Assembly (NCBI RefSeq): GCF_030553305.1
Contig: NZ_JARRAH010000001.1
Coordinates: forward strand, 868,001 to 932,000
Reading direction: 5' to 3'
Origin: Halomarina ordinaria
Lineage (GTDB): Archaea; Halobacteriota; Halobacteria; Halobacteriales; Haloarculaceae
DNA length: 64,000 nucleotides
Part shown: positions 19,653-32,201 of the stretch, piece after piece
Position numbering within the stretch: position 1 is the first letter of the stretch
How the letters are laid out: every line of letters begins with the position of its first letter
The notes under the pieces: generated by a model
Databases searched by the model: none
Told to the model about the DNA's origin: nothing
Seen by the model: the letters and a program-made list of their open reading frames with translations, nothing else
Made by a program: the position numbers and the translations under genes

Positions 19653-19938
19653 ACGCACGTACTTCGACTCCCGAGGCTTGGACCTTTCCAGTCCGGAGTG
19701 AAAGTGATGCGTGGAACGGCAACGCGGAGTGTTCAGGAGCGAGACGAACCGTGGAATCGCCCGCTCCGGCGTGGTGACTCGCTCGCTCACGGCTCGCTCG
19801 TCACGTCACGCCGCGCCGCGAAAGACGGTGGGGACGGAGGGGTGTGACCCGCGGTCGCTCACTCGCGTTCGCTCCCTCCTTCAAATCCCCCACGTGCATC
19901 TCGCAGTCGCTCGCGTCCGTTCGCGACGGCGAAGAATG
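19653..19938. repeat. intergenic region with degenerate copies of the tRNA-Trp 3' end
   Basis: This stretch downstream of tRNA-Trp contains no convincing gene. At 19830-19840 GGGGACGGAGG repeats the tRNA acceptor/T-arm end (true copy at 19939-19949). At 19872-19893 an inverted version appears (CTCCTTCAAATCCCCCA). The filler between them (GCTCACTCGCGTTCGCTCC) is the kind of repeated octamer sequence seen also beside tRNA-Lys. Together they form an imperfect palindrome that looks like a scar of recombination or integration at the tRNA. Confidence 0.55.
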
Positions 19939-20114
19939 GGGACGGAGGGATTTGAACCCCCGATCGACTGATATCTCCGGTTGCGCCTCGGAACTCCAGA
20001 GGGTCGTCAACGCGGCGAGGTGATCAGCCCGCCGCTCGGTATATCAGTCTGGAGTCTCGTCCCGGGCGCGTGGCCTCTGGAGTCAGTCGCCATGCCTGGC
20101 TTGGCCACGTCCCC
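19939..20114 (-). tRNA. trnW: tRNA-Trp (CCA) with a 103-nt intron
   Basis: Read on the minus strand: acceptor GGGGACG (20114-20108) pairs with CGTCCCC (19945-19939); anticodon stem ACTGA pairs with TCAGT around loop CTCCAGA; anticodon CCA is at 20080-20078; T-arm GGGTTCAAATCCC. The mature tRNA would be 73 nt if an intron at 20076-19974 is removed after position 37. Haloarchaeal tRNA-Trp is known to carry an intron of about this size at this site, cut by the bulge-helix-bulge endonuclease and holding box C/D guide elements; I did not map those boxes precisely. Confidence 0.95.
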
Positions 20115-29420: not shown

Positions 29421-30044
29421 AGCGCGACACGTAGCTCCGTCACTCACGACGCGAATAGTCGTTATCTGACACAGTTGAGGGGAACGCCGTCGGCCTCCAT
29501 CGACAGGGCGATGGCTCGGTGGTGCGATTCGGTGTGCGGACGAACGGTGACCGAGCGAGGACCGCCCCCAGACCTAACCGTGTCGAGTGCTAACGTCGGC
29601 CTGTATGCACGCACCCATCGTCAGGACCGACAAGTCAGCGATAGAGCGCGTCCGCGACGCGATTCTCAATCGCGGCAACCCGACTGACGACGACGACGAA
29701 TCGTCGAGGGGGCCCGGCGTCCCACTTCCCGGTTGACCGGCGGTCGACCCGCTTCGACCGCGACACCAGGTGGTCCCTCACGGGACCATCGTGACTCAGC
29801 CGAATAGCCGTGTGTTCGAGCGACTGGGGGGTTCGAACCTCGGTCGCTCCGTTCGCTGGTGTTCGCTCTCTACCTCAATCCCGTAGCCGCTTCGCTCGTC
29901 ACGTTCGTTCCTCGCAGAAGCGGCCTGAGAGGGATTTGAACCACGGTCGCACGCTACCTCGCTTCGCTCGAATCGCGTGCTCCCTGACTCGAATCCTCTC
30001 AGGTACGTCCACGGTCGCTCACTGACGTTCGCGACACGTACGAC
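29421..30044. repeat. intergenic mosaic with tRNA-like 3' ends beside tRNA-Lys
   Basis: No established gene except the small frame at 29605. Copies of a tRNA T-arm/acceptor end recur: GGGGGGTTCGAACCTCG near 29826, and CCTGAGAGGGATTTGAA at 29924-29940, which repeats the tRNA-Lys 3' end (true copy near 30048-30063). The latter is mirrored at 29986-30003 (CTCGAATCCTCTCAGG), making an ~80-nt imperfect palindrome that also pairs GCACGC with GCGTGC. Filler octamers such as CGCTTCGCTCG recur. It resembles a graveyard of integration or recombination events at the tRNA. Confidence 0.6.
29605..29736 (+). CDS. possible small protein (43 aa), unverified
   Basis: An ATG-initiated frame encodes MHAPIVRTDKSAIERVRD, then an Asp/Ser-rich end stopping with PGVPLPG. 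Composition (acidic run of five Asp/Glu, amphipathic helix at about 8-22) is haloarchaeal-like and the codon bias is acceptable. No family or ribosome-binding support; it may be spurious. Confidence 0.3.
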   Translation: MHAPIVRTDKSAIERVRDAILNRGNPTDDDDESSRGPGVPLPG

Positions 30045-30117
30045 GGGCTGAGAGGGATTTGAACCCTCGGCCGTCTGGTTAAGAGCCAGATGCTCTGCCT
30101 GGCTGAGCTATCAGCCC
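30045..30117 (-). tRNA. trnK: tRNA-Lys (CTT)
   Basis: 73 nt on the minus strand. Acceptor GGGCTGA pairs with TCAGCCC; D-arm GCTCAGCCAGGCAGAGC; anticodon stem TCTGG/CCAGA around loop CTCTTAA, giving anticodon CTT (reads AAG); T-arm GAGGGTTCAAATCCCTC. No intron; CCA is not encoded. Confidence 0.97.
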
Positions 30118-30239
30118 TCGATTTCGAGTAACGTGGATTGACGCATATAAGTTTCCTTTCGCCCGGGTCGTGCCCGTCGATGACGGCCTCCACGGTGGAA
30201 GGCGACGACACTCGCGGGACGACCGTTCGGCGAAACGAC

Positions 30240-30246
30240 TATATAG
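30240..30246 (+). promoter_or_regulatory. TATA box of a putative RNA gene
   Basis: TATATAG (30240-30246) inside CGACTATATAGAC is a strong archaeal TATA box. About 25 nt downstream, at 30267, begins a perfect 8-bp hairpin (AGAGTTCG/CGAACTCT, 30267-30297), where a transcript would start. No start codon follows in a plausible frame, so an untranslated RNA is likely. Confidence 0.5.
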
Positions 30247-30266
30247 ACATACGCGTCACTCTGTCT

Positions 30267-30600
30267 AGAGTTCGGTCGGGGTGAGCAATCGAACTCTCAC
30301 AGGTGGGGACGGCGACAGGAACGACCGGTGGCCGGCTCTCGTCGTTTTTTGGTGGGTCGAAGGAGAGCGCCGCCGCGATGGCGGACGGCGGCGCGTCGAG
30401 CAACACGCAACCCGACCGCTGCGCCGGGCCGAAGCCCCCCTGCGGCGCAGTCGGTCGGAGCGGACAGGGAACGGGACAGTGTGACCTGTCTGCTAGCCCC
30501 CCGGGCGTCTGGCGCCCGTCGGTTTGCGAATACCGCGTCGGCTTGACGCCGTGCGCGTTTGGGGTGCGGCGGCACCCGCACGTCAAGCCATCCGACCGAT
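30267..30600 (+). ncRNA. candidate structured non-coding RNA, family unknown
   Basis: Between tRNA-Lys and the TrkA-N/DHH gene lie about 330 nt without a protein gene but with six strong hairpins in a row: 30267-30297, 30367-30394 (GCGCCGCCG/CGGCGGCGC), 30412-30458 (14 paired bases capped by GGGC-CGAA-GCCC), 30460-30493, 30502-30518 and 30540-30589 (GGCTTGACG/CGTCAAGCC with an inner GGGTGC/GCACCC). A run of six T at 30345-30350 could terminate an early short form. Hallmarks of RNase P RNA (GAGGAAAGTCC) and of SRP RNA (GGAAGGGAGCA) were not found. Strand is inferred from the TATA box only. Confidence 0.45.
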
Positions 30601-30752
30601 AGGCCCAGACGCGCTTAGTTATCGAGAACGTACAGCCGCCTCGGGCGCTGTAAGTTCGGGCTACTGGGACGGTCACCGTTCGAGGTGGGCGGGTTTCGAC
30701 CACGGCGCCGAGAGGGGAATTTGAAGTACGATGGCGCCAGAGGTAGCGTATC

Positions 30753-32201
30753 ATGAGTACCGCCATTACGATGGCGTCGATGTCCACGTACGCCATCCTC
30801 GGGTGCGGAAGCGTCGGTCACGCCGTCGCCGAAGACCTCGAGGAGGAGGGCAAGGACGTCCTCATCATCGATATGGACGAGGGGCGCGTCGAGGCGCTGC
30901 GCGACCAGGACATGGACGCGCACGCGGCCGACATTCGGGAGGCGGCGGTGGCCGACGAGGTCGCGGGCCGCGACGTCATCCTCATCCTCTCCTCGGACGT
31001 GGACGCGAACATCGCCGCCGTCGAGAACATCCGCGGCCGCGGCGGCGAGCAGTTCATCGTCGCCCGCGCCTCCGACCCCGTCTCCGCCGACGACCTCTCC
31101 GAGAGCGGCGCGGACGTCGTCATCAACCCCTCGACGGTCATCGCCGACTCGGCGCTCCGCGCGCTCGAGACCGGCGAGTTGGAGTACCGGAGCGGCAAAC
31201 TCGCGGAGATAATCGACGGGAGCGCGTCGGGCCTCGCCATCCTCATCCACCGCAGCCCCGACCCGGACTCCATCGCGAGCGCCGTCGCGCTGAAGGCCAT
31301 CGCGGAGGCCCGCGACATCGAGGCCGACATCGTCTACGACGGCGAGATCGGACTCCAGGAGAACCGGGCGTTCGTCAACCTCCTCGGTATCGACCTCGTC
31401 CCCTCCAGCGACGTCGACATCGACCAGTACGACACCGTCGCGCTGGTCGACCACGCCCAGGCGTCGGAACCCGCCGTCGACCGCCCCGTCGACATCTACA
31501 TCGACCACGCCGAACCCGAACTGGAGTACGACGCCCGCTTCGAGGACGTCCGACCGAACATCTCCTCGACGTCGACCATCCTCACGAAGTACATCCAGGA
31601 GTTCGACCTCAACCTCACGGAGGAGGTGGCGACGGCGCTGCTCTACGGTATCCGCGCCGAGACGCTCGACTTCAAGCGCGACACCACCCCGGCCGACCTC
31701 ACCGCCGCGGCGTACCTCTACCCGTTCGTCAACCACGACACGCTCGAACAGGTCGAGTCGCCGAGCATGAGCCCCGAGACGCTGGACGTGCTCGCGGAGG
31801 CCATCCGCAACCGCGACGTCAAGGGGAGCCACCTCGTCTCGAACGCCGGGTTCGTCCGCGAACGCGACGCGCTGGCGCAGGCCGCCCAGCACCTGCTCAA
31901 CCTCGAGGGCATCACCACCACCGCCGTCTTCGCCATCACCGAGGACACCATCTACCTCGCCGCCCGCTCGAAGGACATCCGGATGAACATCGGGGCGGTC
32001 CTCAACGACGCCTTCGGCGACATCGGCGAGGCGCGCGGCCACTCCACCGACGCCACCGTCGAGATACCGCTCGGCATCTTCACCGGCATCGAGACCAGCG
32101 AGGACAACCGGGACACCCTGCTCGCGCTCACGGAGGAGGCCGTCCGCCGGAAGCTCTTCGAGGCGATGGGCGTCGAGACGGGCGACGGCAACGGCAACTG
32201 A
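30753..32201 (+). CDS. TrkA-N / DHH-DHHA1 phosphoesterase fusion protein
   Basis: 482 residues. Residues ~10-130 form a Rossmann RCK/TrkA-N domain (YAILGCGSVGHAVAEDL; VLIIDMDEGRVEALRD). The rest is a DHH phosphoesterase: LIHRSPDPDSIASAVALKAI, VALVDHAQ, IYIDHAEPE and the DHHA1 domain with EARGHSTDATVEIP. The canonical DHH triplet appears as VDHAQ, so metal ligands are partly altered. Domain pairing suggests a nucleotide-regulated phosphodiesterase (c-di-AMP or nanoRNase type). The start may be 30753, 30771 or 30780. Confidence 0.88.
   Translation: MSTAITMASMSTYAILGCGSVGHAVAEDLEEEGKDVLIIDMDEGRVEALRDQDMDAHAADIREAAVADEVAGRDVILILSSDVDANIAAVENIRGRGGEQFIVARASDPVSADDLSESGADVVINPSTVIADSALRALETGELEYRSGKLAEIIDGSASGLAILIHRSPDPDSIASAVALKAIAEARDIEADIVYDGEIGLQENRAFVNLLGIDLVPSSDVDIDQYDTVALVDHAQASEPAVDRPVDIYIDHAEPELEYDARFEDVRPNISSTSTILTKYIQEFDLNLTEEVATALLYGIRAETLDFKRDTTPADLTAAAYLYPFVNHDTLEQVESPSMSPETLDVLAEAIRNRDVKGSHLVSNAGFVRERDALAQAAQHLLNLEGITTTAVFAITEDTIYLAARSKDIRMNIGAVLNDAFGDIGEARGHSTDATVEIPLGIFTGIETSEDNRDTLLALTEEAVRRKLFEAMGVETGDGNGN

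Follow-up and report, generated by a model that had tools for sequence, protein, structure and literature searches.

What, if anything, is encoded between the genes for tRNA-Lys(CTT) and for a TrkA_N-DHH protein in Halomarina ordinaria, a haloarchaeon of the genus Halomarina? An earlier note on the window (the whole stretch of 64,000 nucleotides that was analysed) had proposed that this gap, which is 635 nt long, contains a structured RNA of some 330 nt, preceded by a TATA box and composed of six successive hairpins. Judging from sequence signals, we favor, with confidence a little above even, a smaller product: an unannotated haloarchaeal intergenic small RNA (sRNA) gene of about 84 nt (30267-30350). 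The landmarks of the gap are as follows.

30044-30117, minus strand: tRNA-Lys(CTT), a kept neighbour
30720-30727, plus strand: TTTGAAGT, promoter-like element of the DHH gene, 26-33 nt before its ATG and kept in relatives
30753-32201, plus strand: TrkA_N-DHH-DHHA1 gene, a neighbour outside the RNA, with Pfam TrkA_N and DHH above cut-off

The adjacency of tRNA-Lys and the DHH gene is kept in nearly all of the haloarchaeal loci examined, and the gap between them measures 94-200 nt in many genera as compared with 296-1159 nt across eight Halomarina. Because the DHH gene has a promoter-like element of its own, the predicted RNA probably does not serve as a leader for it. On the other side of the gap, several truncated copies of the 3' sequence of tRNA-Lys (GAGAGGGATTTGAACC...) are present beside the intact tRNA gene, at 29815-30066, and such copies are also found in relatives; they are possibly traces of integration.

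The predicted gene consists of the following parts.

30231-30245, plus strand: core promoter (sequence signal), BRE CGAAA at 30231-30235 and TATA box TATATA at 30240-30245
30267-30350, plus strand: predicted small RNA of ~84 nt, from the spacing of promoter and T6; Rfam-negative
30267-30297, plus strand: hairpin 1, which opens the RNA at its predicted start; loop CGGGGUGAGCA closed by a 10-bp stem, AGAGUUCGGU/AUCGAACUCU
30298-30307, plus strand: linker CACAGGTGGG, recurring between the same two genes in H. halobia (G004) and G003, with a degenerate form in G001
30302-30343, plus strand: hairpin 2, upstream of the T run, from the minimum free energy (MFE) fold of 30267-30350
30345-30350, plus strand: T6, predicted intrinsic terminator, one of two T6 runs in the 64 kb

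The TATA box to which the earlier note had called attention is present and is preceded by a BRE, the two being haloarchaeal promoter elements whose consensus we took from Haloferax volcanii (PMC4983044). A strict BRE-plus-TATA pattern has a single match in the 64 kb, both strands included, at this site; the pattern was picked after the site had been seen and misses most real promoters, so the count gauges only the rarity of such sequence. Of the two T6 runs on both strands of the window, the one at 30345-30350 lies about 100 nt downstream of the promoter and on the same strand. In Haloferax volcanii, transcription ends at T stretches, with T5C reaching 95% in a reporter (PMC7237163). The earlier note had placed this T6 at exactly these coordinates and had considered it a possible source of an early, short variant. 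It is, however, the only run of five or more T residues on the plus strand from the promoter to the DHH gene, and the ~84-nt form would therefore be expected to predominate. The single strict BRE-plus-TATA match and the T6 some 100 nt beyond it likewise make a short RNA likelier than one of 330 nt.

We infer promoter activity, termination at the T6 and a mode of action for the predicted sRNA as follows. RNA polymerase would initiate at about 30267, some 27 nt beyond the BRE/TATA element (the start is placed from the TATA box only, and the end is set at the T6). The transcript would open with the 10-bp hairpin, displaying the G-rich loop CGGGGUGAGCA, would then run through CACAGGUGGG and the second hairpin, and would stop at the T6. 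By analogy with haloarchaeal sRNAs, it would most likely act in trans, its G-rich loop or linker base-pairing to C-rich segments of mRNAs. Loop CGGGGUGAGCA and linker CACAGGUGGGGAC gave computed energies of -10.9 and -7.3 kcal/mol against an assumed 3' end of 16S rRNA, both obtained without a control; pairing of loop and linker with the anti-Shine-Dalgarno sequence is speculation. Structure counts against the predicted sRNA rather than for it: the 84-nt form by itself is not unusually stable (fold z -0.9), and a 10-bp stem like that of hairpin 1 arises in 53 of 500 shuffles of the 84-nt RNA. The outer pairs of hairpin 2 are mostly G-U and include part of the CACAGGTGGG linker.

Does the locus belong to a known family or encode a protein? 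A search of Rfam (gathering threshold or E<=5) returned no match at this locus save the neighbouring tRNA-Lys and matches overlapping it, and in relatives' loci (gathering, E<=5) tRNAs alone were above threshold. RNase P RNA (RF00373) and SRP RNA (RF01857) resemble the long RNA proposed earlier in being structured and about 300 nt in length. Neither model matches here, however, and the genome's own archaeal copies lie elsewhere (C1:1925716-1926086 and C1:1330039-1330348, respectively); the earlier note was thus right to set both aside. The guide-RNA families in Rfam were also unmatched, and hairpin 1 is, by inspection only, too short for an H/ACA pocket. We rejected a coding function as well, in agreement with the earlier note: overlapping open reading frames had no match in Pfam and are disrupted by indels of 1, 2 and 5 nt relative to Halomarina G005, the one relative in which part of the gap can be aligned.

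The closest known kind of RNA is the haloarchaeal intergenic sRNA, as exemplified by sRNA132 (PMC6560208) and s479 (PMC8155600) of Haloferax volcanii, an organism in which intergenic sRNAs are abundant (PMC6560208). The predicted RNA is like these in being small, non-coding and lineage-restricted and in lying between genes in DNA without a credible coding frame, with a BRE/TATA signal in front of it and a T run as a stop signal at its end, all as read from sequence. A point of difference is that tRNA-Lys and DHH are only about 132 nt apart in the Haloferax loci that were examined.

We now turn to the longer stretch. The hairpins reported earlier are indeed present in the fold: the MFE structure of 30260-30622 contains about six and has an energy of -194.8 kcal/mol, as compared with a shuffle mean of -171.1 (z -4.09; 0/100). 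The GGGC-CGAA-GCCC cap (30426-30437) tops a lower stem GACCGCTGCGCC/GGCGCAGTCGGTC (30414-30425 with 30444-30456), so that the capped stem occupies 30414-30456. Taken separately, 30351-30622 had a fold z of -5.0, as compared with -2.7 to +1.9 in 48 control stretches of the window. Most of these hairpins lie within a block that could be compared with a relative.

30361-30674, strand unassigned: non-coding stretch kept only in G005 (71-73% identity), bearing the later hairpins of the earlier note

In a DNA search of 148 family genomes, this block aligned in one of the 147 others, that of G005 (73% identity by BLAST and 71% of ungapped columns, over 314 nt), and was not found in six other Halomarina or in the rest of the family. 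The block includes exact matches to G005 such as GAGCAACACGCAACCCGA and CGCTTAGTTA. Every match to the 18-mer GAGCAACACGCAACCCGA outside G000 and G005 carries two mismatches, and one, which is viral, falls in apparent coding sequence. The remaining DNA matches in the search were short (about 24-60 nt) and were dismissed as chance matches of GC-rich sequence; one of them, an 82% match in H. halobia (E 1e-7), is harder to dismiss. Since most other intergenic DNA of the two genomes fails to align, the block is probably constrained, though not as the predicted RNA.

The comparison with G005 did not bear out the compensating stems claimed earlier. Of the 82 ungapped pairs of the window fold, 33 are broken in G005, among them 8 in the long stem, which has 14; 3 of the 4 pairs of the GGGC-CGAA-GCCC cap are broken as well. 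The hairpins GCGCCGCCG/CGGCGGCGC and GGCTTGACG/CGTCAAGCC are largely intact. The number of pairs kept (49) exceeds that in slid versions of the alignment (26-36), a surplus attributable to sequence identity and to the derivation of the structure from one sequence. The consensus fold of the two sequences was no better than that of column shuffles (z 0.02, and -0.89 for the minus strand), and G005 itself folds in an ordinary way (z 0.08). This test of the stems draws on a single relative, and some conservation could be concealed where gapped hairpins are misaligned. The case is a warning for GC-rich spacers of haloarchaea: a fold of very low energy (z -5) may have no equal in the one relative that can be aligned, so that stability by itself says little about whether an RNA structure is conserved.

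These results bear on two other interpretations of the longer stretch. One is that 30267-30610 encodes a single structured non-coding RNA, some 330 nt long, and that the short form is a by-product of the T6. Its appeal lies in the folding energies of the whole and of the downstream part, in the retention of the block in G005 against a background of intergenic DNA that, for the most part, the two genomes do not share, and in the two hairpins that are largely conserved there. Against it, the T6 sits between the promoter and most of the hairpins with no later T run of five or more before DHH, the gap in G005 is without the promoter, the first part of the RNA (including the short RNA) and the T6, and the broken pairs and the z scores near zero weigh on the same side. 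We regard it as very unlikely. What survives of the earlier proposal of a functional RNA is a likely promoter-driven, non-coding and Rfam-negative transcript; its long conserved structure does not.

The other takes 30361-30674 to be functional in its own right, apart from the short RNA, whether as an RNA of the minus strand or as a region that controls DHH at the level of DNA. Its identity to G005 over 314 nt with the exact blocks, its retention there in the absence of the upstream promoter, and the 82% identity of a 62-nt minus-strand stretch to a conserved spacer of H. halobia all speak for such an element, whereas its absence from the six remaining Halomarina and all other members of the family searched, the indifferent minus-strand consensus fold and the failure to find a recognisable promoter on the minus strand speak against it. 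It is a possibility to be taken seriously, if on the unlikely side. For our part, we propose that the block is a separate conserved non-coding stretch beyond the predicted terminator and does not belong to a 330-nt RNA.

The same gap in other species is also of interest. G006, H. oriensis (G002) and H. rubra (G007) have in common an RNA-like element of about 130 nt between tRNA-Lys and DHH, in which all 23 proposed pairs are kept and 4 are changed on both sides, a pattern of covariation seen in three sequences on which the structure itself was drawn. The consensus fold of the element had a z of about -3 in 120-nt windows. Like the window RNA, it occupies the same gap in the same direction, with several hairpins and a T-rich end; unlike it, it has no detectable counterpart here in sequence or structure. 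A covariance model of the element (R1) found no match at 30240-30640 up to an E value of 10, and its best match beyond the three source species (E 0.016 per genome) was noise. Because R1 finds nothing at the window locus, the element is, as far as sequence comparison indicates, a positional analogue of the window RNA whose homology is unsupported. In H. halobia, too, a TATA-like element, hairpins and CACAGGTGGG are present in the gap, which ends in a T-rich stretch; this and the covarying element of the three species favor an sRNA in the window. The link that CACAGGTGGG makes between the window, H. halobia and G003 is weak because shuffling yielded a 10-mer common to three groups in 32 of 300 sets. 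As a genome-wide motif CACAGGTGGG was rejected: its counts were near those of a reversed-pattern control, and most matches outside the gap look coding.

It is conceivable that there is no RNA gene here at all and that the TATA box, the T6 and the hairpins of a GC-rich spacer are products of chance. Rapid turnover of the gap (296-1159 nt) and weak sequence conservation are in keeping with such a spacer, as is the ease with which hairpins are found in DNA of this kind. Yet the BRE-plus-TATA element and the T6 are jointly rare in one orientation, the fold is more stable than all 48 controls, and an RNA-like element with covariation occupies this gap in sister species; we judge a chance origin improbable, at perhaps one chance in four, and slightly less likely than a second element. 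A more ambitious variant of the sRNA interpretation, which we hold to be distinctly doubtful, is that the gap contains one and the same orthologous sRNA gene throughout Halomarina, evolving extremely fast: each lineage would have remade the structure but preserved the position and a short G-rich core (CACAGGUGGG / GUGGG), which might pair with a shared target such as the C-rich beginnings of mRNAs or the 3' end of 16S rRNA. If transcribed, the predicted sRNA of 84 nt would represent an additional, Rfam-negative sRNA gene in a haloarchaeal genus that has been little studied, and the tRNA-Lys/DHH gap would be a site of sRNA gene turnover.

Finally, we note three observations made along the way. 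In Halegenticoccus (L113 and L118), the tRNA-Lys/DHH gap contains a stem whose sequence is ACCCGCCGT/ACGGCGGGT in one species and ACCCGCTGC/GCGGCGGGT in the other (minus strand, by eye), and a further structured RNA is possible there. A second tRNA of the window (19937-20114, minus strand), matched by Rfam and missed by ARAGORN, probably contains an intron, since the match spans 178 nt. The H. halobia spacer mentioned above (L003:1440-1620) is intergenic and has a counterpart in G005 (L175:1501-1675) with 90% identity between the two species; at 51 of 62 nt it agrees with the minus strand of the window at 30387-30447. It begins with a promoter-like sequence, CGAACCTTTTTATCCGAGAACGGGACCAG, that recurs at many other sites in Halomarina genomes, and is a candidate for an sRNA or a shared promoter element.
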